DNA of 64,000 nucleotides from a virus: the IMG/VR virus record IMGVR_UViG_3300023184_004198, positions 62,001-126,000 of that record. The stretch is one strand, 5' to 3'. Each line of letters begins with the position of its first letter. The first letter of the stretch is position 1. The translations under genes and the position numbers were made by a program. This document shows, in pieces, positions 25,623 to 63,022 of this stretch. The notes beneath the pieces are model-generated. The model did no database searches, was not told where the DNA came from, and saw only the letters and a program-made list of their open reading frames with translations.

Positions 25623-26015
25623 ATGGCCTATTCAGAAAAAGTAATTGATCACTATGAAAATCCACGCAATGTGGGCAAGTTTGAAATTGACGACACAATT
25701 GGCACAGGCATGGTGGGCGCACCTGCCTGTGGCGACGTAATGAAATTGCAAATCAAAGTTGAAGATGGAATTATAACAGATGCCAGGTTCAAAACATACG
25801 GATGCGGAAGTGCGATTGCCTCATCCTCTCTTGTTACCGAGTGGGTTAAAGGACGAACGCTTGACCAAGCAGCAGCTCTTAAAAATTCAGAGATTGCTCA
25901 GGAACTCGCACTGCCACCAGTCAAGATTCATTGTTCTATTCTTGCTGAAGATGCTATACGAGCAGCCGTAGAAGACTACAGAAAAAAACATGCTGATACC
26001 CTTTCAGCAACATAA
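25623..26015 (+). CDS. iscU: IscU-type Fe-S cluster scaffold
   Basis: A 130-residue protein, full IscU length. The three cluster-binding cysteines are present as ACGD (C36), GCGSA (C61) and HCSI (C104), together with D38 and H103. The LPPVK motif recognised by the chaperone HscA is kept at residues 97-101. Host IscS would supply sulphur. It leads an operon with a radical SAM gene, which overlaps its 3' end by 26 bases, and IscA. An intact IscU on a phage is unusual and suggests demand for Fe-S clusters during infection. Confidence 0.92.
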   Translation: MAYSEKVIDHYENPRNVGKFEIDDTIGTGMVGAPACGDVMKLQIKVEDGIITDARFKTYGCGSAIASSSLVTEWVKGRTLDQAAALKNSEIAQELALPPVKIHCSILAEDAIRAAVEDYRKKHADTLSAT

Positions 26016-27690
26016 AAAATTAAAAATATTATTTTATCATGCTGGCGGTCACACAGCCTGGCTGTATCCGGCCGCACTTCAGTTAAAAACATACATTGAT
26101 TTATTTTATTCTGATATCTCCAATCATTTGGATTGGTTGATACCGTTGCAACAAGAAGTCACGGACGAAGAGCTGATACAACATATCAATCAAACTGATG
26201 CAGACATATTATGTACCAGTCATTATCTTTGGAATCATGCATTTTTAACTCGGCAAATAGCCGCAGTCAAATCTCGATGTAAAAATACATTGAAAATAAT
26301 TGCAGGTGGTCCAAGTATTGATGTAAACAACAATACAGAATTTTTTGATCAATATCCCAGTATTGATTATGCAGTGTACGGTGCAGGTGAACAAGCATTT
26401 GCAGACATTGTAAATCACTTGGTGTTTCAAACACCATTGATTGCGTTCAACACTTCTAACTGCGGTTGGAAAAATCACAACACTGGTAAAACCATTGTGG
26501 CTGACTACAAGTTTGTAAAAATGATAGAAACCAGTCCGTTTGTACATAATCGAGACTTGTTCACAGCCATGGTCGCTGATGCCAAGAAAAAACATGCACC
26601 GGTATGGCTTCCATATACTCTTACCAGGGGGTGTCCATATTCGTGTACATTTTGTGATTGGAACAGTGGACTTGGCAACAAAGTGTCAAGAAGAAAAAAC
26701 ACATATCAGCAAGAAATTGATTTGTTCCAACAACTGGGAGTCACAAACATATATTTGTCAGATGCCAATGTTGGACAGTACACAGAAGATGTTGAAATGA
26801 TTGAATATTTTGCAGAAAAAAATATCAAAGAAAATGCAGGGTTTCATGTTGGTGGGAATTTTAGTAAACTCAAAAAAGAAAACAATCTAAAAATATTCAA
26901 TGTCATGGCACAAGGTCGTTTGGTCAATAAAACTTTGAATTTTTCAGTGCAGGATATCAACAAGCAGGTATTAGACAACATTGATCGTCCTGATGTTGGG
27001 TGGGATGTGCATGTTGCCATGGCTGACGAATTACGCAATCGATATCCGCATTTGATTGTCAAAGCACAATTGATCTATGGATTGCCAGGACAGACACCTG
27101 CATCTTGGCGGCAAACTCTTGATCAAGTAACACAACAAAAGATTTTGCCTGTGATTTTTTTAAACGAGCCATTGCCTGCCAGTCCAGCCATATACGATCC
27201 AGAATATCAACGTAAATTCCAGTACGAGTATGTTTATAGCAACAGAATGCTTGGTACTGTTTATTCAAGTAAAATTCCAAAAAAAAGCAATTCCTTTAGT
27301 CAACAAGATCTTGTGCAGATGAATTTGTTGTCTGCAATGTATCTGGCACTTAGTGCTATTAATTTTGCTTTGCACGAAAATCATGCTGAGTTATTAAACA
27401 TTTCTTGTATTGTTGATAAATTTTTAACCAGTGACCATTACCAAGGTCTTTACAATAATCTTTATCATAACTGGACTGTAGAAAATAATTTTTACTATAC
27501 AATCGACTTTTCTGGCAAGCCTGCACAGATTCCTGACTTGACGTTGGGATTGCATTTGGCCAAGGACCCGCATTTTTTAAAATATGTGTCAACTTTTCTT
27601 TCTGAAAATGAACGCCGTAAATTTTTAAAAATAGCAATTAAATCTGAGTTTCAAAAAATGATAGATGAAATCCACTCAGATGTTGATTAA
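25990..27690 (+). CDS. B12-binding-type radical SAM enzyme
   Basis: A 566-residue protein. The first 150 residues look like a cobalamin-binding Rossmann domain (ADILCTSHYLW...IIAGGPSID...DYAVYGAGEQAF), although I see no DxHxxG His ligand. The radical SAM motif is RGCPYSCTFCDW (CX3CX2C) near residue 217. A YGLPGQTPASW stretch fits the later barrel. The order resembles BchE-like enzymes that methylate or cyclise unactivated carbons. It lies between iscU and iscA, which could supply and repair its clusters. Confidence 0.85.
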   Translation: MLIPFQQHKKLKILFYHAGGHTAWLYPAALQLKTYIDLFYSDISNHLDWLIPLQQEVTDEELIQHINQTDADILCTSHYLWNHAFLTRQIAAVKSRCKNTLKIIAGGPSIDVNNNTEFFDQYPSIDYAVYGAGEQAFADIVNHLVFQTPLIAFNTSNCGWKNHNTGKTIVADYKFVKMIETSPFVHNRDLFTAMVADAKKKHAPVWLPYTLTRGCPYSCTFCDWNSGLGNKVSRRKNTYQQEIDLFQQLGVTNIYLSDANVGQYTEDVEMIEYFAEKNIKENAGFHVGGNFSKLKKENNLKIFNVMAQGRLVNKTLNFSVQDINKQVLDNIDRPDVGWDVHVAMADELRNRYPHLIVKAQLIYGLPGQTPASWRQTLDQVTQQKILPVIFLNEPLPASPAIYDPEYQRKFQYEYVYSNRMLGTVYSSKIPKKSNSFSQQDLVQMNLLSAMYLALSAINFALHENHAELLNISCIVDKFLTSDHYQGLYNNLYHNWTVENNFYYTIDFSGKPAQIPDLTLGLHLAKDPHFLKYVSTFLSENERRKFLKIAIKSEFQKMIDEIHSDVD

Positions 27691-27699
27691 ATATTTTCT

Positions 27700-28023
27700 A
27701 TGATAACCATAACTGATCAGGCTCGAAACAAAATTCAAAAATTAGTAACACTCAAAGGTTACGCTGGCATACGACTGGGTGTGAAAACCACAGGTTGCTC
27801 TGGACTGGCTTATGTGTTAGAATACGTTAAAGAATACATACCTGATGAAAGCACAATAAACTATGCTCAAAATGAGTTTTGTGTGCTGGTAGATAAAAAA
27901 CATGATGTGTACTTGCGAGGTACGCAAGTAGACTATGTACGGCAAGGCCTCAACGAAGGTTTTGAATTTTCAAACCCCAATGAACGTGACCGCTGCGGCT
28001 GCGGAGAAAGTTTTAGAGTTTAA
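27700..28023 (+). CDS. iscA: IscA/HesB A-type Fe-S carrier
   Basis: A 107-residue protein with the three conserved cysteines C33 (TTGCSG), C99 and C101 (CGCGESF). Length and layout match IscA. A-type carriers hand clusters from IscU to target enzymes. It sits ten bases after the radical SAM gene. The next gene's start lies inside its last 44 bases. Confidence 0.92.
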   Translation: MITITDQARNKIQKLVTLKGYAGIRLGVKTTGCSGLAYVLEYVKEYIPDESTINYAQNEFCVLVDKKHDVYLRGTQVDYVRQGLNEGFEFSNPNERDRCGCGESFRV

Positions 28024-47875: not shown

Positions 47876-49087
47876 ATGAAATCACCCGAAACCCTAGACA
47901 ACTGTAGTTTTTGCGGCAAGCACAAAGATTCAGTGGCCAAACTTATTGTGGGCAGTGAAGTCTCAATCTGCAATGAGTGTGTGGACTTGTGCCAGACCTT
48001 GCTCAAAGAAGAGCTGCCGATCAAGACCAAAGACGCCACTGACGAAACTTTGGACCCACGTGCCATCAAAGACCATTTGGACCAATATGTGATCGGACAA
48101 GATCATGCCAAGATGGTGTTGAGTGTGGCCATTGCCAATCACTACAAACGCATCGCTAATGCGGATCCTGATACCGAAATTGAAAAAGCCAACATTCTTA
48201 TGTTGGGCCCTACAGGTTCGGGCAAAACCTTGCTGGCTAGAACAGTGGCACGTTATTTGGATGTGCCGTTTGTGATTGCAGATGCCACCAGTTTGACCGA
48301 AGCAGGCTATGTGGGCGATGATGTAGAAAGTTTGATCACGCGGTTGTACACAGCCGCTGGTGGCGATGTAGAAAAAACACAACGTGGTATTGTGTTTATT
48401 GATGAAATTGACAAGATCAGTCGCCGTAGCGAGAGTGCCAGTATCACCCGAGATGTGTCAGGTGAAGGTGTACAACAGGCTCTGCTCAAATTGGTAGAAG
48501 GTACCAAGTGCAGAATTACCCCACAAGGTGGCCGCAAGCATCCGGCAGGAGATACTGTGGAAATTGACACAGCCAATATTTTGTTTATTGCAGGCGGTGC
48601 GTTTGTGGGACTGGACAATATTGTAAAAAGCCGTGTAAAAGGTACCAGCATTGGATTCTCAGCACAAGTAGTAGCAGACAACACCAATATCACCTTGGAT
48701 AAAACCACACCCGAAGATTTGATCAAGTTTGGCATGATCCCAGAATTTGTAGGACGTTTCCCCAGCTGGGTAGCCTTGGCAGAACTCAGCAAAGCAGACT
48801 TGGTGCGTATACTGCAGGATGTCAAGCACAGTTATGTCAGTCAATATCAATGGATATTCAAACGTGATCAAGTTGAGTTGAAATTCAGCCTAGACAGCCT
48901 GGACTTGATTGCAGAGCGCACCATTGCCAATAAGACTGGTGCTAGAGGTTTGCACTCAGAACTAGAGCGTGTGCTATTACCACACATGTATAATTTAACA
49001 CGTTATCGCAAGGGCGGAATTCAGGCCTTGAATATCAATACTGACCTGGTAAATAATCCTGAATCACTTCGGGAAATAAATGAGTAA
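47876..49087 (+). CDS. clpX: ClpX-type AAA+ unfoldase
   Basis: A 403-residue, full-length ClpX. Zinc-binding domain C10/C13/C32/C35, Walker A GPTGSGKT (111-118), pore loop GYVG (144-147), Walker B IVFIDEID, RKH-type loop GGRKHP (218-223) and the IGF motif (259-261) that docks onto ClpP. No clpP is present in the window, so it would work with host ClpP or as a stand-alone unfoldase. It overlaps the bS21 gene by eight bases. Confidence 0.94.
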   Translation: MKSPETLDNCSFCGKHKDSVAKLIVGSEVSICNECVDLCQTLLKEELPIKTKDATDETLDPRAIKDHLDQYVIGQDHAKMVLSVAIANHYKRIANADPDTEIEKANILMLGPTGSGKTLLARTVARYLDVPFVIADATSLTEAGYVGDDVESLITRLYTAAGGDVEKTQRGIVFIDEIDKISRRSESASITRDVSGEGVQQALLKLVEGTKCRITPQGGRKHPAGDTVEIDTANILFIAGGAFVGLDNIVKSRVKGTSIGFSAQVVADNTNITLDKTTPEDLIKFGMIPEFVGRFPSWVALAELSKADLVRILQDVKHSYVSQYQWIFKRDQVELKFSLDSLDLIAERTIANKTGARGLHSELERVLLPHMYNLTRYRKGGIQALNINTDLVNNPESLREINE

Positions 49088-49304
49088 ACCACACGCTAGA
49101 TCAGTATTAGTACAAGATAACAATGTTGAAAAAGCCCTGCGCAAGTTCAAGAAAAAAGTGCAGAATTCCGGCATACTAAATGATATTAGAGAGCGTGAAT
49201 TCTACACCAAACCCACCACTGCTAGAAAGCTCAAACGCAGTGCCGCTCGAAATCGCTGGCGCAAATACATTGAAGGTCAACAACTCCCGCCCCGCACACA
49301 CTAA
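49080..49304 (+). CDS. rpsU: Ribosomal protein bS21 homologue
   Basis: A 74-residue basic protein with the bS21 signature NVEKALRKFKKKVQNSGIL followed by REREFYTKPTTARKLKR and an AARNRWRK end. bS21 helps the 30S subunit bind mRNA leaders and is a known cargo of large aquatic phages. Its start lies eight bases inside clpX, so the two are translated together. Confidence 0.9.
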   Translation: MSKPHARSVLVQDNNVEKALRKFKKKVQNSGILNDIREREFYTKPTTARKLKRSAARNRWRKYIEGQQLPPRTH

Positions 49305-49318
49305 ATTTTCCAAATATT

Positions 49319-49378
49319 TTGACACAGAATGAAATTTGTGTTATAAATATACTTGTAGCGCCGATGGTCGGGCTACAA
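49319..49378 (+). promoter_or_regulatory. hsp20 promoter and 5' hairpin
   Basis: TTGACA (49319-49324), spacer 17, TATAAA (49342-49347). The -10 region also reads TATAAATA, the T4 late element, so both polymerase forms may use it. The transcript starts near a hairpin: TTGTAGC (49353-49359) with GCTACAA (49372-49378), plus CCG/CGG. This would protect the 5' end. The ribosome-binding site AAAGGAG is outside it. Confidence 0.7.
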
Positions 49379-49414
49379 TTCAAAAGTCATCTTGCTTAAT
49401 AAAGGAGAAAACAA

Positions 49415-49873
49415 ATGACAAAAACTCTAACCCTTCGCAGTTTCGATCTTCCCGCAATTCACAAATTTGGTATCGGTTTCGATAACCTGTTTGATGATCT
49501 CATGCGTGTCAACGCTCAACAAAGCAATACCAACTATCCGCCCTATGACATTGTGCAAGTCAATGATGACGAGTACATGATTTCATTGGCAGTGGCCGGT
49601 TTTGGGCCTGACAACTTGAGCGTGACCAAGGACAAAAAGACCCTGGTAGTGGAAGGCAAACACAGTCGCGAGACTGTGGACAACGAAGACGCCACAGCAA
49701 AATACTTGCACAAAGGCATCAGCGAGCGCAGTTTCCGCAGGGAATTTACCTTGGCTGATCACGTGGAAATCAGCAATGCACATCTTGAACTGGGCATACT
49801 CAGCATTCACTTGAAACGTGAAGTGCCTGAAGAGGCCAAGCCAAAGACCATTGCGATTACCTACAAAGAGTAA
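49415..49873 (+). CDS. Small heat-shock protein (Hsp20/IbpA-like)
   Basis: A 152-residue protein with an alpha-crystallin domain. YPPYDIVQVNDDEYMISLAVAGFGPDNLSV opens it, and SFRREFTLADHVEISNAHLELGILSIHLKR closes it with the conserved A/G-x-L-like turn. Hsp20 proteins hold unfolded proteins; phage versions are common in T4-like marine phages. Strong SD and own promoter. Confidence 0.92.
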   Translation: MTKTLTLRSFDLPAIHKFGIGFDNLFDDLMRVNAQQSNTNYPPYDIVQVNDDEYMISLAVAGFGPDNLSVTKDKKTLVVEGKHSRETVDNEDATAKYLHKGISERSFRREFTLADHVEISNAHLELGILSIHLKREVPEEAKPKTIAITYKE

Positions 49874-49888
49874 TATAATGTAAATACA

Positions 49889-49910
49889 GTGGCAGCAATC
49901 CTGCTGCCAC
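49889..49910 (+). other. Intergenic hairpin between hsp20 and clpS
   Basis: GTGGCAGCA (49889-49897) and TGCTGCCAC (49902-49910) form a perfect 9-base-pair stem with a four-base loop. No T tract follows, so it is not a standard terminator. It could be an RNA-processing or mRNA-stability element. Confidence 0.6.
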
Positions 49911-49932
49911 TAATTGTAAGCAAGGAATAGAA

Positions 49933-50244
49933 ATGGCACAGAGCGATACACGCACACGAATCAAACCATCAGAGGCTGTTCAAGAGCCTCCCATGTTCAA
50001 AGTTATCTATTTGAATGATAACCAAACCACAATGGATTTTGTGGTGGACAGTTTGATTGAATACTTTGATTACACTCCCGAGACTGCTGAACAAATAACC
50101 ATTGATATTCATCAAGCAGGTCAGGCCACAGTGGCAGTGTTGCCTTATGAAGTTGCTGAACAAAAAGGCATTGAAGTCACACTCAGCGCACGTTCACAAA
50201 GTTATCCACTGCAAATCAAACTAGAACCTGAAACGGTAAATTAA
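49933..50244 (+). CDS. clpS: ClpS adaptor protein
   Basis: A 103-residue protein. VIYLNDNQTTMDFVVDSL matches the ClpS NDDxTPMxFV motif, with N28, D29 and M34 kept and the second Asp replaced by Asn (N30). H60 matches the N-end-binding His. ClpS delivers N-end-rule substrates to ClpAP, and in E. coli it blocks ssrA substrates. With ClpX nearby it suggests redirection of host proteolysis. It converges on the next gene with four bases of overlap. Confidence 0.88.
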   Translation: MAQSDTRTRIKPSEAVQEPPMFKVIYLNDNQTTMDFVVDSLIEYFDYTPETAEQITIDIHQAGQATVAVLPYEVAEQKGIEVTLSARSQSYPLQIKLEPETVN

Positions 50245-51053: not shown

Positions 51054-51407
51054 ATGAACATTATATTTGGAGACGCCTTAGACACACTGCCAGACAACTA
51101 CACTGTGCTGGAGTTAGATACATTTGTATTTCCTCCCGAAGGTGAAAAACGCACCAGTTATTGTGTAGTTGAAAAAGTGCCGTTGGGAGATTTTCCATTG
51201 ATGGAAGCCTATATCAAAGTACATGCTGACATGATGCAGGCCTATCGAGATCAAAACTGGGATTATTGTTTGCATGCCATCAAAGGGCTAACAGGGCGTT
51301 GGAATGGTGAACTAGATAGTTTTTACAGTAATTTGTTGCAACGTGTTGAAAACTATCAGGCCAACCCACCAGGTGCTGATTACACCGGCTTTATTGACAG
51401 ACGTTGA
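51054..51407 (+). CDS. Conserved phage hypothetical protein
   Basis: A 117-residue protein with AAAAGGA before the ATG. A central Tyr/Asp/Trp-rich helix (MQAYRDQNWDYCLHAIKGLTGRWNGELDSFYS) recurs in marine T4-like phages. It converges on the aminotransferase gene with a 28-base overlap. Function unknown. Confidence 0.7.
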   Translation: MNIIFGDALDTLPDNYTVLELDTFVFPPEGEKRTSYCVVEKVPLGDFPLMEAYIKVHADMMQAYRDQNWDYCLHAIKGLTGRWNGELDSFYSNLLQRVENYQANPPGADYTGFIDRR

Positions 51408-52546
51408 AGTCCAGTTTTTAATTGATCAAAGTATTGATCGTCGGCAGTCAATGGTGCAAATACTTTGACACTGTTGAATCCGGGCAATGATGCTGCAAAT
51501 CCCACATTGTTAAGATCACTCAAAGAAATCTCTCTATCAAAATCGTAGGTGCGGTAAGTATTGGCACCTCGAGAATTCAAATCCAGTTCATCAGCAATGG
51601 CCTGCAGTCTACTTTCAATTTCGGGCACATGCGGCAACAACAATCGAATCTGTTGGGTAGCACTCAAAGCAGCAGCCACACCGGCCATGTTGGGTTGCCA
51701 AGTATGCCCATGTGCCCAGGACTGTATGTTCAAAGTAGATCTAACTGCTTCAGTACACACTGCGGCACCCAAGGGACTATACCCACCTGTGAGTGATTTG
51801 CCAATGGCACAAATGTCAGGTTGAATACCATAAGGCTCATAGCCAAACAAGGTACCATTTGTGCCCCAACAAAAAGCCACGTCGTCCACAATCATCAACA
51901 CATTGTTTTCTGTGCAAATGGCACGTAGATCTTGCCAGAACTTGGTGCTGTAAGGTGCCATGGTCACTGCCCAACTCACAGTTTCCAACAACACACATCC
52001 AATGTCAGTGTGTTGTTTTAACTGTGCTCGTATCTTGTTTAGAGTTAATTGTTCTTGTCCATGTTGTTGATATGTATATTGCCAATTGGGACTGTCTATC
52101 AACACAGCACGACCCAGTCCAGGATACTCACCACGCAGATGTTTGGCCAGCATGGTAGTACCATGATAACTCATTGAGAAACTCAATATCTTGTCACGTG
52201 ATTCACCACGTGCGGCCCAGTAACTGTCGTTCATAGCAATAGCCGCTTCTACAGCATCTGACCCACTCACAGCCCAGGTCACCGCAGCCCAGTTGCCAGA
52301 TTTGCAAATTTCATGAACCAATGTGTTATTCGGTTCAGCAGTCTCGCCTGTGTTGCCACGAATGAAATTTATGGAGTTGCTAGACACTGCATCAGCAATG
52401 GCGTGATTGCCATAGCCCAAGATGTAGGCCATGTTGCCACATTGTATATCTACATGTGTTTCACCATTGGAATATTCCACCCAGTATCCGTGTGTACGAG
52501 TTACTGTTTTTTCCTGCTCGCCAGGACTCCAATACTTTATTTCCAT
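51380..52546 (-). CDS. Class III PLP aminotransferase (glutamate-semialdehyde aminomutase-like)
   Basis: A 388-residue protein. SGSDAVEAAI is the cofactor-phosphate region, SYHG and VDDVAF (Asp binding the pyridine nitrogen) follow, and GKSLTGGYSPLGA carries the PLP lysine. The fold and order fit class III enzymes such as GSAM, slightly shorter than the bacterial type. It could act on amino sugars or amino acids. It is in the same direction as the lipid-remodelling operon but 30 bases after a small secreted-protein gene. Confidence 0.85.
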   Translation of the reverse strand: MEIKYWSPGEQEKTVTRTHGYWVEYSNGETHVDIQCGNMAYILGYGNHAIADAVSSNSINFIRGNTGETAEPNNTLVHEICKSGNWAAVTWAVSGSDAVEAAIAMNDSYWAARGESRDKILSFSMSYHGTTMLAKHLRGEYPGLGRAVLIDSPNWQYTYQQHGQEQLTLNKIRAQLKQHTDIGCVLLETVSWAVTMAPYSTKFWQDLRAICTENNVLMIVDDVAFCWGTNGTLFGYEPYGIQPDICAIGKSLTGGYSPLGAAVCTEAVRSTLNIQSWAHGHTWQPNMAGVAAALSATQQIRLLLPHVPEIESRLQAIADELDLNSRGANTYRTYDFDREISLSDLNNVGFAASLPGFNSVKVFAPLTADDQYFDQLKTGLQRLSIKPV

Positions 52547-52892: not shown

Positions 52893-53891
52893 TTACACAA
52901 CAGGTACCAAATTGTCCCTAAAAATTTCCCAAGCACGATCCCAGTTCCATCGTTTACTACCATCCCAGACACGATGTCTTGGCAAGAACAAACAATCTGT
53001 TACCGCTTGTTTTAAGTAAGGATTCATGCAGCCTGTGATGCCTTCATCAATGACATCAAGTGGTCCTGTAGCAGGATATGCAGCCACTGGTGTGCCACAG
53101 GCCATGGCTTCAATCATGACAATACCAAATGTTTCCCACTGACTGGGGAACACAAACACATCTGCTAGATTGTAATAGTATGCTAGATCTGCACCTGTTT
53201 TGAAGCCCACAAACTCTACATCAGGATAACGTGCCTCAAGTTCTGCTCGATATGGCCCGTCGCCCACCATGATCTTGCGTGAATTGGGATAACTCATGGC
53301 ACAGAAGTCATCTAAGTTTTTTTCCTTGCTGACTCGCGACACACAAACCAGCGTGGTCTTGTCATTGGGTAGTCGTTCTCTGGGATAAAATATTTCACGA
53401 TCTACACCACGTGTCCATGATACAATTTCCCCATCAAACCCATGTTCTTTCAACTCCTTGACCATGGTATCTGTGGTGGTCAACACCTTACCTGAGTGCT
53501 TGTGAAACCAACGCACTAGAGGCCAAGTAAGGGCTTCAGGAATGCCAAATAGTTTTCTAAGTCCTTCTGGAAACTTAGTATGATAAGCAGTATTGTACCT
53601 ATAATGGTGTTTGTCAAGATATTGTCTAACACGCAGACCAATAGGACCCTCCGTGGCGATATGGATATGATCCGGACGGATCTCCTCAAATATCTTGCCC
53701 AGGTTCCGGGGAAAGGCAATCTTGACTTCGTTGTAGCCAGGGCAATCAACATAGCGGAACCTCCCGGGATCAAGATATACAATACGATAGTTGTCCCGAA
53801 CCGCACACGCCTCAATATTTTTGTAAGTGGTAACCACGCCATTGATTTGATCCGGTAAATTGTCTGTGACTATTAGGATTGTTTTTGACAT
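52893..53891 (-). CDS. agt: Agt-type diacylglycerol glycosyltransferase (GT4-like)
   Basis: A 332-residue GT-B glycosyltransferase. TDNLPDQINGVVTTY (9-23), HIHIATEGPIG (75-85), AYHTKFPE (102-109), VGDGPYR (209-215) and EX7E as ETFGIVMIE (253-261) match bacterial lipid glycosyltransferases that make glycosyl- and glucuronosyl-diacylglycerols under phosphate starvation. It lies 33 bases after plcP in one operon, as in plcP-agt pairs of Agrobacterium and marine bacteria. The identification rests on motif similarity plus operon context; GT4 enzymes acting on other acceptors cannot be excluded. Confidence 0.8.
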   Translation of the reverse strand: MSKTILIVTDNLPDQINGVVTTYKNIEACAVRDNYRIVYLDPGRFRYVDCPGYNEVKIAFPRNLGKIFEEIRPDHIHIATEGPIGLRVRQYLDKHHYRYNTAYHTKFPEGLRKLFGIPEALTWPLVRWFHKHSGKVLTTTDTMVKELKEHGFDGEIVSWTRGVDREIFYPRERLPNDKTTLVCVSRVSKEKNLDDFCAMSYPNSRKIMVGDGPYRAELEARYPDVEFVGFKTGADLAYYYNLADVFVFPSQWETFGIVMIEAMACGTPVAAYPATGPLDVIDEGITGCMNPYLKQAVTDCLFLPRHRVWDGSKRWNWDRAWEIFRDNLVPVV

Positions 53892-53924
53892 TGGCCTGTT
53901 ACCTTGAACGTTTTGAATTTTAAA

Positions 53925-54797
53925 TCATATCGCATGGTCGCTAACACTTGTTCGCAACTGGCTTGATTTGGGAAAACTAATTCTATTCTTCCGGGTTGAT
54001 CTTGCGGATTCGTTGTGTGTACTGCTATCAATATCATCAACCACATTGTCGTTCTCCCGAGTCCAGGTCACAATTTCCCAACGGCCATCATGATGCTCTA
54101 CCAAGGCAGTGCATGATTCTACCCAGTCGCCGTCATTCATATACACTATGCCATCAATCTCTTTTATTTCAGCATGATGTATGTGACCGCATATGACACC
54201 GTCAAACCCACGCTTACGACAGTAATCAGCAAGATTGTGTTCAAAGTGAAATATAAAATCTACTGCTTTTTTGACCCGGTGTTTAAGGAACAGGCTAAGG
54301 CTAAAGTAACCAAAACCCATACGATGCCGTATCCAATTAATACGAGTATTGAGTCCAAGAATGAAATCATATGCTTTGTCTCCTAACATTGCCAACCACG
54401 GTGCCAGTCTAGTGATGCCGTCAAACAAGTCGCCATGCACCACCAAGTAGTGTTTGTTATCGACCCCAATATGTTCGACTTGATTTACAACTTCAATCAA
54501 GCCCAGGCCAATGCCATATTGCATGAACGGTCTTAAAAACTCGTCGTGATTACCAGCCACATATACAACACGAGTACCACGTTTGCTATGACCCAGAACG
54601 CGGCGAATGACATTGGTATGACTTTGTTTCCACCGCCACTTGTTTTGTTTGATTTTCCAAGCATCAATTATGTCTCCTACAAGATATAGGGTTTCGCAGG
54701 TGTTGTGTTTGAGGAAGTTGTTGAGTTTGTCAGCCTGGCTGTCCTTGGTGCCAAGATGAACATCGCTGATAAAAATACTGCGATAAATTTTTTGCAT
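53925..54797 (-). CDS. plcP: PlcP-type phospholipase C (calcineurin fold)
   Basis: A 290-residue metallophosphoesterase. Metal ligands: D12/H14 (SDVHLG), D42 (GDIID), N83/H84 (GNHDE), H121 (HGD), H205/H207 (GHIHHA). The full run YLVGDIIDAWKIK...RWKQSHTNVIR and NDGDWVESCTALVEHHDG is the PlcP pattern rather than that of the shorter LpxH, with which this family is often confused. PlcP hydrolyses membrane phospholipids to diacylglycerol. It is followed by agt and preceded by a Pho box. The -10 box ends five bases before the ATG. Confidence 0.85.
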   Translation of the reverse strand: MQKIYRSIFISDVHLGTKDSQADKLNNFLKHNTCETLYLVGDIIDAWKIKQNKWRWKQSHTNVIRRVLGHSKRGTRVVYVAGNHDEFLRPFMQYGIGLGLIEVVNQVEHIGVDNKHYLVVHGDLFDGITRLAPWLAMLGDKAYDFILGLNTRINWIRHRMGFGYFSLSLFLKHRVKKAVDFIFHFEHNLADYCRKRGFDGVICGHIHHAEIKEIDGIVYMNDGDWVESCTALVEHHDGRWEIVTWTRENDNVVDDIDSSTHNESARSTRKNRISFPKSSQLRTSVSDHAI

Positions 54798-54802
54798 GTA
54801 TT

Positions 54803-54836
54803 ATTTAAATCTATATGTGTTACAGTAACATTACAA
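54803..54836 (-). promoter_or_regulatory. Pho box promoter of plcP-agt
   Basis: Reading on the minus strand: TTGTAAT (54836-54830), four bases, CTGTAAC (54825-54819), then exactly ten bases and TTAAAT (54808-54803) as the -10 box. This is the 7-4-7 PhoB-box layout with the -10 element placed as in PhoB-activated promoters. The mRNA would start at or next to the plcP ATG. Confidence 0.85.
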
Positions 54837-54851
54837 ATTGCCATCACATAA

Positions 54852-55523
54852 ATGTGTAATATGTTAGCACATAAATACCCTGTGAAACCCACTATAGCCC
54901 TTTTCATCTATGATCCCAAATGCTCAGTCCAATGTGGAAATGGAATGATACAAGCATTGAGTCCTTACTACAACTTTAAACTGTTTTCAAAAAATCGTGT
55001 GGAGAATGTGTTTTTTGATGATGTAGACATGGTTGCTGTACCTGGTGGCATTGGTGACGCAGATACCTTCAAACAACTGTTCCGAAACAACGGTGACCGT
55101 GTGCGCAGATTCATTGCTGACGGTGGTAGATATCTGGGCATTTGCATGGGCGCATACTGGGCAGGAAGCCACTACCTCAATGTGTTAGACGGTGTAGATG
55201 CTGTACAATATTTAAAACGTCCAGGCACAGACACTCGCAGACCACATGCTAAAAATATGAGCGTGACCTGGCGCGGGCAACCAGAACACATGTTCTGGTA
55301 TGACGGGTGTGCCTTGGTGGGCGATACCACAAAGTTTGAAACAGTAGCCACTTATGTCAATGGTGATGCCATGGCCATTTATCAAAATAGAATAGGGTTG
55401 ATAGGCTGCCATCCCGAAGCAGTCAAGTTTTGGTATGATGGATATTCATGGATGCGCAGGCACTGGGCAGGTGGACATCATCATTTGTTACAGGAGTTTA
55501 CTGACCAACTCATGCGGTCGTAA
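54852..55523 (+). CDS. Class I glutamine-amidotransferase-like protein (BPL_N type)
   Basis: A 223-residue protein divergent from plcP. GICMGAYWAG carries the nucleophile Cys, and GCHPEAVKFW carries the His-Glu pair, as in class I glutaminases and the BPL_N domain. VPGGIGD and an Asp/Asn-rich loop support that fold. The start may be ATG 54852 or 54861. The Pho box between it and plcP could affect both. Its substrate is unknown. Confidence 0.8.
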   Translation: MCNMLAHKYPVKPTIALFIYDPKCSVQCGNGMIQALSPYYNFKLFSKNRVENVFFDDVDMVAVPGGIGDADTFKQLFRNNGDRVRRFIADGGRYLGICMGAYWAGSHYLNVLDGVDAVQYLKRPGTDTRRPHAKNMSVTWRGQPEHMFWYDGCALVGDTTKFETVATYVNGDAMAIYQNRIGLIGCHPEAVKFWYDGYSWMRRHWAGGHHHLLQEFTDQLMRS

Positions 55524-55603: not shown

Positions 55604-56740
55604 TTAGAAGCGGTATTGCACACCAACTGCCACAGCCTGTTGTTTGTACTTGCTGTCAGCATAGGTTGATCCATCACCATTGGGAACCCAACGATCATAG
55701 ATTGTGAATGGGCTTACAGCACCACTTGCACGGTTAGCAACAACGTAGTCAACAAACACTTGTGTGCGCTTGCTGAAGTCATAAGTTGCACCAACGGCAG
55801 TCATTTTCACATCGTCTTTGCCAGCAGTGATTTTGTCTTGCACATTGTAGTAACCAGCATTTACGCCAACGTTGGCGTTGACTTTGTACTTGGCACCAAC
55901 AAAGTATGTGTTGGCATCAGTCTTGCCATCTGCCTTGCTGGAACTTGAGTAGAAAGTGGTCTGTGCCGTGGGGTTTCGAGTTTGTGCATAGCCTGCGTTT
56001 ACAGTCAGTGCAGGAGTTACAGCATACTTTGCGGCAACCAAGTCAATTTTCTCACTAATAACAGTGGTGCTCAAACGCAATTCTGAATGAGTGTATGCCA
56101 AAGCAAGATCGCCAGCAGTGTAAGTACCACCTAGGTTGTAGCTCTTTTTGTAGTCGTTGTTGTCTAACTGATTACCAAAGCTGTAGGCACCGTCTAACAC
56201 CAGGCCACCAAAGCTGGGGGAAGTGTAACGAACCATGTTGTCAAAGCGGCTCACACCTGAACCACCGTAAAAACCAGCGTAACGTGCAATGGGTTTCAAG
56301 CCACCAAAGTTCCAGTTGCTACGTGAATCAAATTCATCAGCCACTGTGTACAAATGTGTTTTGCCACGGCCTAGCTTGACTTCACCAAAGCTGCCTGACA
56401 AGGCCACGTTGGCTTCACGGTCAAACAAGGTGCTTGAACCTGTGCCGCCTGTGCCCGAGTCTTTACCAGCGCCGCCAGTGCGCAGGCTCATGTTGCCTTC
56501 CAGGGTCAGTGTGGCTTTCAAGCCATCGCCTAGGTCTTCTGAACTCTTGATACCAAAACGGTTGCTGTTGTGCAACTGTTCGCCCAGACCTTGGAATGTG
56601 CTGTCGCTGCTGGAAAACCCAGAACCACTGACAATACCAGCACCAGCAACACCGTAAAGTTGTGTGCTTTGTGCCTGTGCCGTGCCAGCAGTGATGCCAG
56701 CGGCCAACAGCGTGGCTAAAACAATTTTCGTAAATTTCAT
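55604..56740 (-). CDS. Outer-membrane porin (betaproteobacterial Gram_neg_porin type)
   Basis: A 378-residue protein starting MKFTKIVLATLLAAG, a signal peptide cleaved after TAQA. QSTQLYGVAGAGIV opens a series of alternating beta strands, and the chain ends in VQYRF, the terminal Phe needed for outer-membrane insertion. Sequence style is that of Burkholderiales porins. SD AGGAGA precedes ATG 56740. It has a sigma-70 promoter and a terminator, so it is a single-gene unit beside pstS. A porin on a phage is unusual; it could raise nutrient influx. Confidence 0.9.
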   Translation of the reverse strand: MKFTKIVLATLLAAGITAGTAQAQSTQLYGVAGAGIVSGSGFSSSDSTFQGLGEQLHNSNRFGIKSSEDLGDGLKATLTLEGNMSLRTGGAGKDSGTGGTGSSTLFDREANVALSGSFGEVKLGRGKTHLYTVADEFDSRSNWNFGGLKPIARYAGFYGGSGVSRFDNMVRYTSPSFGGLVLDGAYSFGNQLDNNDYKKSYNLGGTYTAGDLALAYTHSELRLSTTVISEKIDLVAAKYAVTPALTVNAGYAQTRNPTAQTTFYSSSSKADGKTDANTYFVGAKYKVNANVGVNAGYYNVQDKITAGKDDVKMTAVGATYDFSKRTQVFVDYVVANRASGAVSPFTIYDRWVPNGDGSTYADSKYKQQAVAVGVQYRF

Positions 56741-56768
56741 AGAATCTCCTTTTTTCATTTACTTTCCT

Positions 56769-56807: not shown

Positions 56808-57824
56808 TTATTTCTTGATTTGTGTCCAAACATCACTGCGGATGCGATCAGTCACTGCTTTTGGTAGCGGGACATAATCAAGGTCAGTGGCCAGTTTACC
56901 ACCATTCGCAAATGCCCAATCAAAGAATTTTACAACTTCTTGACTGGTTTTGGAATTTTTAGGTTCACGGTACATCAAAATAAAAGTTGCACCTGTGATG
57001 GGCCAGGTTTGATCGCCCTTTTGATTCACAAGACTGATGCCCATGCCTGGTGTTGAAAACCAATCTGCTCCTGCGGCAGCAGCCGCAAATGTCAAATCAT
57101 CTGGCTCTACGTATTTACCATTACGATTTTGCAGTCGAACATGAGTCATTTTGTTTTTCTTGGCGTATGCATATTCCACATAACCAATTGAATTTTTTAC
57201 ACGACTCACATTGGCAGCAACACCTTCATTGCCTTTGCCTCCCACTGATGTGGCAGCAGGCCATTTCACAGCGGCACCTTTGCCCACTTGTTCTTTCCAG
57301 ATTGGACTAACTTCACTCAAGTAGTCAGTGAAGATAAATGTTGTACCCGAACCGTCTGCACGATGTACAATGGTAATAGGCTCGTCGGGCAATTTGGCCT
57401 TTGGATTCAATTCTTGAATGCGTTTGTCGTTCCATACCACAATGTGACCAACAAAGATCTTGGCCAGCACTTCACCGGTCAACTGTAACTCACCAGGCTT
57501 GACGCCTTCTACATTGATCACTGGCACAACGCCGCCTAACACTGTGGGAAACTGTACCAAGCCAGCGGCTGTTAATTCATCACCTTTTAGCGGTGCATCT
57601 GTGGCACCGAAATCCACTGTGGCCGCTTTGATCTGTTTAACTCCACCTGAACTACCAATACTTTGATAGTTTAATTCTACACCAGATTTGTCCTTATATA
57701 CTTCACTCCACTTGCTATAAATGGGAAAGGGGAAGGTTGCACCTGCCCCTGTTATTGTTTCTGCGTTTGCTTGTGGGCTCATCAGATACAATGACGCCAC
57801 TATCACTGCCAGTACTTTTTTCAT
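56808..57824 (-). CDS. pstS: Phosphate ABC transporter substrate-binding protein PstS
   Basis: A 338-residue protein from ATG 57824 (AAGGA eight bases upstream). Signal peptide MKKVLAVIVASLYLMSPQANA, then ITGAGATFPFPIYSKW, IGSSGGVKQIKA, DFGATDAPL and HRADGSGTTFIFTDYL, the phosphate-binding motifs of PstS. It binds phosphate in the periplasm for the host PstCAB permease. A Pho box precedes it. Host-like PstS is known in cyanophages and pelagiphages. Confidence 0.95.
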   Translation of the reverse strand: MKKVLAVIVASLYLMSPQANAETITGAGATFPFPIYSKWSEVYKDKSGVELNYQSIGSSGGVKQIKAATVDFGATDAPLKGDELTAAGLVQFPTVLGGVVPVINVEGVKPGELQLTGEVLAKIFVGHIVVWNDKRIQELNPKAKLPDEPITIVHRADGSGTTFIFTDYLSEVSPIWKEQVGKGAAVKWPAATSVGGKGNEGVAANVSRVKNSIGYVEYAYAKKNKMTHVRLQNRNGKYVEPDDLTFAAAAAGADWFSTPGMGISLVNQKGDQTWPITGATFILMYREPKNSKTSQEVVKFFDWAFANGGKLATDLDYVPLPKAVTDRIRSDVWTQIKK

Positions 57825-57861
57825 GTGTTTTTCCTTTATGAACGTGCGATTGCACACAAAT

Positions 57862-57895
57862 ATTTAAACACAAAGATGTTACAGTATTGTTACAG
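57862..57895 (-). promoter_or_regulatory. Pho box promoter of pstS
   Basis: On the minus strand CTGTAAC (57895-57889), four bases, CTGTAAC (57884-57878), ten bases, then TTAAAT (57867-57862). The repeats are identical and the spacing equals that at plcP. The box overlaps the stop codon of the upstream small gene. The leader to ATG 57824 is about 30 bases. Confidence 0.9.
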
Positions 57896-59307: not shown

Positions 59308-60549
59308 ATGAAAAAAATTGGTTTTATTGGGATCGGCAAACTGGGTCTCGATTGTGCAGAAGTCATGGCTGAAAAGCATGAAGTGCGTGGTTACGATATT
59401 TACCCACGAACCAGCGACTCAGTAAAAGTCTGCGACATCAACGAGTTAGTGAATGAAAGCGAATGGATTTTTATCGCTGTGCCCACACCACATGCCGAAG
59501 GCTACGATGGATCGGTACCAAGTTCACACATGGAACCTAGAGACTTTGGACATGATGCTGTGATTGATGCCATCAAGAATGTAAACCGGTATGCAACCAC
59601 ACCCAAAAAGGTTGTACTAATCTCTACAGTGTTGCCTGGCACCACACGCAAACATTTTTATCCACTGCTGGATAGCAAGCATCAGTTTTTGTACAATCCT
59701 TACCTCATTGCCATGGGCAGTGTGAAGTGGGACATGGTCAATCCTGAAATGGTCATGATTGGCACAGAAGATGGCAACCCCAATGCTCTAGCAGGTGAAC
59801 TGATCGACTTGTACAAGACCATCATGCAAAATGATCCACGCTATGAAATTGGCACCTGGGACGAATGCGAAGCCATCAAGATCTTCTACAACACATTTAT
59901 TTCAGCCAAGGTTGGTCTTGTGAACATGATTCAAGACTTTGCCTTGCGTATTGGCAACATCAATGTGGACGTTGTGACAGATGCACTAGCACGTAGCACC
60001 ATGCGTATCATGGGACCCAAATACATGACAGCAGGCATGGGCGATGCAGGTGCTTGCCATCCTCGAGACAACATTGCCTTGCGTTGGTTGGCCAAGGAAT
60101 ACAACATTGGCTACGACTTGTTTGACACTGTGATGCATGCTCGTGAGGTGCAGGCCAAGAACTTGGCCATGTACTTGTTGGACCTGTCAGTAATGCACGA
60201 CAACTTGCCTATTGTGATTCACGGCAAAGCCTACAAGCCTGATGTAGAGTACTGCATTGGCTCATACTCAACACTTGTGGGACACTACATTGAACAAGAA
60301 GGTCGCAAGGTTGTTTATGTTGACCCGCTTGCTGATGATCCTACCAATGTGGTTGAAAACGTGGACACACCTGCAATCTTTTTGTGGGCACACAACCGCA
60401 AGATCACTTATGAATACACAGGTGATCAATTAGACACACAACCCTACTGCGACATCAAGCCTGGCAGCATCATTGTCGATCCATGGCGCAAACTCAAATC
60501 AACCCCTGAGGTAGAAGTTGTCCACTACGGTAACACCCGAGTTCATTAA
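59308..60549 (+). CDS. UDP-glucose/GDP-mannose 6-dehydrogenase-like protein
   Basis: A 413-residue protein. GFIGIGKLGLDCA is the NAD-binding loop, FIAVPTPH and STVLPGTT follow, NTFISAKVGLVNM holds the catalytic Lys/Asn, and GDAGACHPRDN holds the catalytic Cys. The usual GGxCFPKD is changed to GACHPRD. This fold oxidises a sugar nucleotide to the uronic acid, for example UDP-glucose to UDP-glucuronate. SD AAAGGAA. Could feed either a surface glycan or, together with Agt, glucuronosyl lipids. Confidence 0.85.
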   Translation: MKKIGFIGIGKLGLDCAEVMAEKHEVRGYDIYPRTSDSVKVCDINELVNESEWIFIAVPTPHAEGYDGSVPSSHMEPRDFGHDAVIDAIKNVNRYATTPKKVVLISTVLPGTTRKHFYPLLDSKHQFLYNPYLIAMGSVKWDMVNPEMVMIGTEDGNPNALAGELIDLYKTIMQNDPRYEIGTWDECEAIKIFYNTFISAKVGLVNMIQDFALRIGNINVDVVTDALARSTMRIMGPKYMTAGMGDAGACHPRDNIALRWLAKEYNIGYDLFDTVMHAREVQAKNLAMYLLDLSVMHDNLPIVIHGKAYKPDVEYCIGSYSTLVGHYIEQEGRKVVYVDPLADDPTNVVENVDTPAIFLWAHNRKITYEYTGDQLDTQPYCDIKPGSIIVDPWRKLKSTPEVEVVHYGNTRVH

Positions 60550-61962: not shown

Positions 61963-61987
61963 CCAATAAAGGCTGTTCATGTATAAT
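61959..61987 (+). promoter_or_regulatory. Sigma-70 promoter of uvdE, leaderless type
   Basis: TTGACC (61959-61964), spacer 17, TATAAT (61982-61987), then six bases to ATG 61994. This supports ATG 61994 rather than an in-frame ATG at 61979 that overlaps the promoter. Confidence 0.8.
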
Positions 61988-61993
61988 ACACAC

Positions 61994-63022
61994 ATGACTA
62001 CACCTAGAATTGGCTTTTGTTGCAAGTGGCTAAATGATCCCGCCGAATGTGGCGGCATGAAAGTCAATGCAGTGGACCGTGACTTAAACGGCAGATCAAC
62101 TACTATGAGGTGGCTCCGCGAGCATGCGGGCGAAGCCGAACAACGTCAGTGGGACATCATGAACCACAATGCTCGTGCGGCTGTGCTCCTTATTGAGCGT
62201 GTGGCCACACTGCCCCCTGAACGCAGAATGGTACGACTGGGCAGTGAAATGCTACAAGGCTACACTGAACCATCGTGGATTGACTGGTGGCAACGCCAGG
62301 AGATACAAGACCACTGTGCAAAGATCTTTGCACCCATTGGCGAGACTGCCCGACGTCTTGGTGTACGCATATCGTTCCATCCCGGACAGTTTTGTGTGCT
62401 GGCATCAGAGTCAGATGAAATTGTAGAACGCAGTATATTAGAGTTTGAATATCATGCAGACATGGCACGGTGGATGGGCTATGGCACGTCGTGGCATGAT
62501 CATGGTTTCAAGATCAATGTGCATTTGTCAGGCAAAGGCGGGCCTGAGAAATTCTTACGCACTCTGGGTAGACTCACACCCGAGGCGAGGAACTTAATCG
62601 CTATCGAGAATGATGAGATATCAAATGGCCTGGATACTGTTTTGCTTGTGGCTGAGCATGTTGCTCTTACGTTGGACGTCCATCACCACTGGATCAACTC
62701 CGGCGAATACATCACCCCTAGCGACCCTAGGGCACAGCGTGTCGTGGAGTCTTGGCGCGGTGTTCGTCCTGTACTTCACTACAGTGTTAGTCGTGAAGAC
62801 GTTTTGGTTGGTCACGATGACAGAACTAGACCCGATTTGGCTGACCTTCTTGCTAGAGGCTTTAAAAAGCAAAAGCTCCGCGCTCACAGCGATTTCATGT
62901 GGAACCATGCTGTGAATGACTGGGCATTGACTTTCGCTGACCAGTGGGACATACAAGTAGAGGCCAAAGGAAAAAATCTTGCTTCAGAGCAGTTGTACCA
63001 ACAATGGAGACAAAATGTATAA
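61994..63022 (+). CDS. uvdE: UV-damage endonuclease UvdE/UvsE
   Basis: A 342-residue TIM-barrel nuclease starting MTTPRIGFCCKWL. RISFHPGQFCVL, INVHLSGKGG, AIENDEI, TLDVHHHWIN and HSDFMWN supply the metal ligands seen in UVDE (His, Glu, Asp). It nicks DNA 5' of UV photoproducts and would repair sunlight damage in surface water. It has its own promoter and sits between two amidinotransferase-type genes; its stop overlaps the next start. Confidence 0.92.
   Translation: MTTPRIGFCCKWLNDPAECGGMKVNAVDRDLNGRSTTMRWLREHAGEAEQRQWDIMNHNARAAVLLIERVATLPPERRMVRLGSEMLQGYTEPSWIDWWQRQEIQDHCAKIFAPIGETARRLGVRISFHPGQFCVLASESDEIVERSILEFEYHADMARWMGYGTSWHDHGFKINVHLSGKGGPEKFLRTLGRLTPEARNLIAIENDEISNGLDTVLLVAEHVALTLDVHHHWINSGEYITPSDPRAQRVVESWRGVRPVLHYSVSREDVLVGHDDRTRPDLADLLARGFKKQKLRAHSDFMWNHAVNDWALTFADQWDIQVEAKGKNLASEQLYQQWRQNV

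Follow-up and report, generated by a model that had tools for sequence, protein, structure and literature searches.

The PlcP-Agt pathway is already known in bacteria, as is phage pstS under PhoB control in cyanophages. Among the closest described systems is the Pseudomonas aeruginosa operon PA3219-PA3218 (PMC8528852), which the locus analysed here resembles in gene order, tight spacing, possession of a Pho box and protein families (52% and 37% identity). The P. aeruginosa operon is chromosomal, however, and the viral one differs from it in a glycosyltransferase (GT) that forms its own clade and lacks a C-terminal extension, in a promoter that has the hexamer TAAATA, and in a plcP start codon located at the predicted transcript start. 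The type 2 arrangement of SAR11, Erythrobacter and other marine bacteria (PMC4796936) likewise has plcP followed by an agt homologue under Pho-box control, but these are cellular genes, and the product of the SAR11 Agt is MGDG and GADG (PMC4796936). A phage phosphate gene under host PhoB has a precedent in the pstS of P-SSM2, going by the account of it in the S-PM2d study (PMC10976474); in that account the gene serves phosphate uptake in cyanobacteria, whereas the present phage adds a membrane-lipid operon. PlcP-family genes are also carried by Pelagibacter phage Mosig EXVC030M and Synechococcus phage S-SRM01 (46% and 36% identity), where they are annotated as UDP-2,3-diacylglucosamine hydrolase/diphosphatase and, unlike the present gene, have no Agt match in the collection searched; in Mosig, the gene lies beside one annotated as a putative phosphate ABC transporter.

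In the open-access literature searched, we found no report of a viral plcP or of a virus rewriting host membrane lipids to save phosphorus, and the phage plcP-agt combination, the exchange of GT4 for GT2 and the promoter architecture described below were absent from it as well. Lipid remodelling in infected cells at low phosphorus has been described as little known (PMC12282109), and an extensive survey of metabolic genes in ocean viruses left out those on glycosyltransferase-bearing contigs (PMC11360552), an exclusion that could hide a plcP-agt operon.

The stretch under study (the window, 64,000 nucleotides) comprises bases 62001-126000 of a 212,614-bp IMG/VR virus record. A preliminary description of it had reported a PlcP-type phosphoesterase followed 33 bases later by an Agt-type transferase, and both open reading frames are present where it placed them, on the minus strand, with plcP first, a 33-bp gap and then the GT gene. 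We consider it highly probable that the pair is a phage-borne phosphate-starvation operon that converts phospholipid to glycolipid and frees phosphorus for the phage. The genes on which this proposal rests are as follows.

53925..54797, minus strand: plcP-like gene, metallophosphoesterase of 290 aa (identity, ligands, tree, NCBIfam control, dN/dS, AF2 model)
52893..53891, minus strand: agt-like gene, GT4 glycosyltransferase of 332 aa with EX7E at 253-261 (identity, tree, dN/dS, AF2)
56808..57857, minus strand: pstS, periplasmic phosphate-binding protein (PRK10918, 417 bits against a cut-off of 339; TIGR00975, 382 bits against a cut-off of 205)
55604..56758, minus strand: Gram-negative porin gene, between pstS and plcP (Porin_4, E 3.8e-43)

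We assign the phage to the T4-related large myoviruses, of freshwater type and with a bacterial host. The record contains T4-type genes for replication, ribonucleotide reductase and tail sheath, and the window also encodes a UvsW-type helicase, a DnaB-type helicase, a primase and ribonucleotide reductase. The DnaB-like helicase and the tail sheath are 49.7% and 38% identical, respectively, to those of Pseudomonas phage PA5oct and its relatives. Host contamination as the source of the operon was ruled out: the contig is that of a virus and has T4-type genes, and many other viral contigs carry the operon too.

Identity of the viral hydrolase and glycosyltransferase

The hydrolase carries the metallophosphoesterase signature (DxH, GDxxD, GNHD, H and GHxH ligands), including the complete ligand set listed in the preliminary description (D12, H14, D42, N83, H84, H121, H205 and H207), and these eight residues are invariant in an alignment of 30 viral and bacterial homologues. 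The protein shares 52% identity with a P. aeruginosa PlcP in the plcP-agt arrangement (L083) and 44% with a Sinorhizobium meliloti PlcP (L082), which is sinR-linked and adjoins acyl-homoserine-lactone synthase/LuxR genes. Between the P. aeruginosa PlcP and the characterised PlcPs of S. meliloti and Phaeobacter, identity is 46-47% (PMC8528852); published PlcPs thus differ among themselves as much as the window PlcP differs from them. The gene is under purifying selection (dN/dS 0.04-0.11). Its AlphaFold (AF2) model has a sound core (mean pLDDT 74) and a C-terminal tail, residues 255-290 approximately, that is predicted to be disordered.

An LpxH-like hydrolase acting with a lipopolysaccharide (LPS)-core or O-antigen glycosyltransferase, which would modify lipid A or surface sugars and mask receptors, would draw on the same superfamilies, and GenBank calls phage PlcPs "UDP-2,3-diacylglucosamine" enzymes. 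The nearest solved fold to the window protein is also LpxH, at 16-21% identity; this match is consistent with a common superfamily, and no PlcP structure was among the solved-fold matches. On the two NCBIfam LpxH equivalog models, however, the window protein falls far short of the cut-offs (43 bits where 134 are required, 36 where 190 are), much as the S. meliloti and P. aeruginosa PlcPs do (38-55 bits), whereas Escherichia coli LpxH scores 364-389. In a quick tree, the viral PlcPs group together next to those of proteobacteria, and LpxH, represented by one row, sits on a branch of ~10 changes per column. Clustering with LpxH, which the preliminary description had named as a refuting outcome, was therefore not seen for the hydrolase.

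The transferase has the predicted EX7E motif as E253-x7-E261, where bacterial Agts have D-x7-E, and it shares many alignment columns with those enzymes, the region of the catalytic motif included. Pfam, the motif, the structural model and matches to GT4 structures all place it in GT4 with an (E/D)X7E motif. The AF2 model is confident (pLDDT 92.4), and its structural neighbours are GT4 enzymes that include BshA, MshA and the lipid mannosyltransferase PimA. Identity to bacterial Agts that adjoin plcP is 36-44%, and the best matches in a plasmid collection include plcP-linked GTs of Sphingomonas, Roseomonas gilardii, Methylobacterium and P. aeruginosa (37-41% identity). NCBIfam profile matches are weak and resemble those of genuine Agt1. 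As with plcP, dN/dS values (0.05-0.19) indicate purifying selection. In a tree rooted on WaaG and WaaB, the viral GTs group with plcP-adjacent Agts (97% SH-aLRT), apart from WaaG/WaaB, so the second gene likewise escapes the refuting outcome, here clustering with LPS glycosyltransferases; because the Agt side also takes in Agt2 and an Acinetobacter GT, this split excludes only WaaG and WaaB.

Together, the profile controls and both trees led us to reject an LpxH and LPS-transferase identity for the pair, and with a Pho box in front of the genes as a further argument we consider such a lipid A-modifying system extremely improbable. From sequence, synteny, trees and control profile scores, we identify the hydrolase as PlcP rather than LpxH and the transferase as an Agt-like enzyme rather than an LPS transferase. 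Cleavage of phospholipid to diacylglycerol by the viral PlcP and transfer of sugar to diacylglycerol by the viral GT are their putative activities.

Pairing of plcP with glycosyltransferase genes among viruses

Relatives of the window PlcP are present in at least 596 viral stretches and relatives of the GT in 437. Any GT gene is adjacent to plcP in 102 of the 107 non-redundant viral plcP loci that have enough downstream sequence: a GT4 in 82, a GT2 (assigned by Pfam) in the same slot in 20, and neither in the remaining five. The 82:20 ratio is biased towards GT4, because the loci were drawn from PlcP and GT4 searches. The distance between plcP and the GT4 gene is strongly conserved among viral loci. 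The GT2 proteins that replace the Agt-like GT4 are short, 238-247 aa (L013, L016, L019, L034, L052 and others), and some are encoded behind a Pho box. The transferase slot is therefore exchangeable.

In the GT tree, a long stem (2.0 changes per column) leads to the viral clade, whose acceptor or sugar could therefore differ from those of bacterial Agts. Thus PlcP might act as proposed while the GT uses another acceptor or an unusual sugar, making some other phosphorus-free lipid or a surface glycan, and the replacement of GT4 by GT2 at about a fifth of the loci would suit such a divergence. The predominant linkage of GT4 to a diacylglycerol-producing enzyme argues against it, as do the columns shared with bacterial Agts around the catalytic motif and the Agt1-like behaviour of the profile matches, and we regard a different acceptor or sugar as quite improbable. 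We favour the Agt reaction on diacylglycerol.

The statement in the preliminary description that no well-described phage has this pair holds, as we found none; the pair is nevertheless frequent among contigs of uncultivated viruses, well beyond this one phage. Only five of 50,697 phage records contain plcP, those of Mosig and S-SRM01 among them. The combination with Agt is absent from these 50,697 records, in which GT relatives reach at most 34% identity and occur in records other than those with plcP. The best 80 bacterial relatives of the viral PlcP are all PlcP homologues, and ~50 of these are directly followed by an Agt homologue. The closest "bacterial" PlcP (62% identity) comes from a 3.7-kb contig in a Hyphomonas MAG (L169), which is perhaps a mis-binned phage fragment.

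Pho boxes, TAAATA elements and the predicted start of the plcP message

The preliminary description had placed a Pho box ahead of both genes. We located this box, and a second one ahead of pstS, each followed by a TAAATA element.

54819..54836, minus strand: Pho box TTGTAATGTTACTGTAAC of the plcP-agt operon, from a pattern scan and kept in viral relatives
54802..54807, minus strand: TAAATA, a -10-type element, exactly 11 nt past the Pho box and 4 nt ahead of the plcP ATG
57878..57895, minus strand: second Pho box CTGTAACAATACTGTAAC, upstream of pstS, from a pattern scan
57861..57866, minus strand: TAAATA element, 11 nt past the pstS Pho box

Sites that match the pattern YTGTAAYNNNNYTGTAAY occur exactly twice in the 212,614-bp record, both times in the window, where 0.01 would be expected from dinucleotide shuffles. 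Since the pattern was derived from regions upstream of viral plcP, the site at pstS is independent confirmation of the Pho box. A slightly wider pattern has 60 sites in 1.15 Mb of non-redundant viral loci, versus one for the reversed pattern, and 53 of the 60 lie ahead of plcP (34) or pstS (19). TAAATA starts exactly 11 nt past the site in 46 of the 60 and at 21-22 nt, one repeat period further, in nine more. The sites have the anatomy of Pho promoters, with two 7-bp direct repeats, an 11-bp period and a -10 element ~10-11 bp downstream. Pho promoters show such geometry, and PhoB replaces the -35 contact. With two sites against 0.01 expected in the window, and 60 against one in relatives, a chance Pho box was ruled out. 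The strict pattern is absent upstream of plcP in approximately two thirds of related viral loci, which may use looser boxes. Scored by itself, the CTGTCAT consensus is only modestly enriched ahead of viral plcP (mean best score 9.0 versus 7.7 in shuffled sequence). No PhoB-type regulator with PF00486 was detected in the phage, suggesting that host PhoB, through predicted binding to the box, probably turns plcP-agt on.

Large genes of this phage, that for the tail sheath among them, are also preceded by TAAATA more often than by permuted hexamers, and TAAATA may therefore be a late promoter element of the phage. T4 late promoters have the sequence TATAAATA. The plcP ATG lies 4-8 nt past TAAATA in 30 of the 34 viral plcP promoters that have both elements, and none has a Shine-Dalgarno-like motif. 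We therefore predict a leaderless plcP message, one that starts no more than ~2 bases from its start codon. The window copy of plcP has an in-frame stop ahead of its ATG. Viral pstS genes under the same promoter type mostly have a normal leader with an AAGGA-type motif, and the pstS of this phage probably starts at the ATG at 57824, which has an AAAGGA Shine-Dalgarno sequence, and not at the GTG at 57857.

A broader proposal, which we put forward tentatively and with real doubt, is that T4-related phages, as a widespread group, built a small Pho regulon of their own, in which host PhoB acts on a late-type (TAAATA) phage promoter rather than a host sigma-70 promoter, the plcP message is leaderless, GT4 and GT2 are exchangeable and phospholipid is mined for virion phosphorus.

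Proposed phosphorus salvage, likely host and further genes of the window

Computation shows what the two genes are, that they form an operon, what promoter pattern they have, and that they are conserved and under selection. Beyond these, we infer PhoB binding, both enzyme activities, glycolipid formation and a benefit to the phage, as follows. In a host short of phosphate, host PhoB would bind the Pho box and turn on plcP-agt jointly with phage pstS. PlcP, as a metal-dependent phospholipase C, would then convert membrane phospholipid to diacylglycerol and a phosphoalcohol, and Agt would transfer a sugar from a UDP-sugar onto the diacylglycerol. In this way glycolipid would maintain the bulk of the membrane, and the freed phosphorus could go into phage nucleic acid. 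A small cell has roughly several million phospholipids, and one 212-kb genome contains, by a rough estimate, ~425,000 phosphorus atoms; partial replacement of phospholipid could therefore pay for several virions. The promoter pattern is the basis for the early steps of this mechanism; for the enzymatic steps, the basis is homology to enzymes that have been tested by experiment (PMC4796936, PMC8528852). Against salvage, PlcP releases phosphoalcohols and not free phosphate, and phage Pho-box predictions can fail in experiment, as with S-PM2d (PMC10976474).

Conversion of phospholipid to glycolipid could also be real and yet benefit the phage mainly in another way: by blocking a second phage, by changing envelope stability or fluidity, or through upkeep of the starved membrane after host shut-off. 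Operon anatomy would be identical in that case, lipid renovation has been discussed or reported to alter phage attachment (PMC9938194, PMC9804370), and virocells remodel their membranes at low phosphorus (PMC12282109). The fact that plcP-agt and pstS share the genome's only two Pho boxes of this pattern points instead to phosphate supply, as do two isolated phages that have plcP without agt, one of them with the gene beside a putative phosphate transporter gene. We therefore think a different main benefit unlikely, though it deserves some weight, and prefer phosphorus salvage. Phage genes for phosphate uptake are known; plcP-agt suggests that phosphorus is salvaged from the infected cell's membrane for new virions. 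If this is true, viruses partly set membrane lipid composition in phosphate-poor waters. The operon also connects phage transcription with host PhoB in a way that can be tested.

The host is likely a Burkholderiales bacterium. Among ~400 Burkholderiales genomes, in a sample that consisted almost wholly of that order, the best match to phage PstS is the PstS of a family with small genomes (1.1-2.3 Mb), at up to 71% identity. Ten of 26 genomes of this family encode their own PlcP, which in some cases shares a contig with pstS. Boxes near pstS and plcP in the family are looser and gave no match to the strict viral pattern, so the pattern does not identify the host. The phage record contains no tRNA genes, precluding a host call by tRNA.

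Several further genes of the window were noted. The porin encoded between pstS and plcP possibly serves outer-membrane uptake. A BPL_N/DJ-1-like protein (54852-55523) is encoded divergently from plcP, and its relatives occur near viral plcP or agt in 69 of 165 loci (a redundant set). A protein of the UDP-glucose/GDP-mannose dehydrogenase family (59308-60549) could provide UDP-glucuronate; a dedicated UDP-GlcA supply by this enzyme is unsupported, as it is seldom found near plcP in relatives (five loci). A class III aminotransferase (51380-52546) is BioA/ArgD-like and scores under the equivalog cut-offs, and a UvdE-type UV endonuclease is encoded at 61979-63022. Genes for an IscU/NifU-type Fe-S scaffold (25623-26015; IscU/NifU Pfam E 2.9e-52) and an IscA-type protein (27700-28023) flank one for a B12-binding radical SAM protein (25990-27690). 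Finally, a cluster at 47876-50244 encodes ClpX with a zinc finger, an Hsp20-like small heat-shock protein and a ClpS-like protein (the last two recognised by reading the sequence), and it is possible that this cluster redirects host proteolysis.
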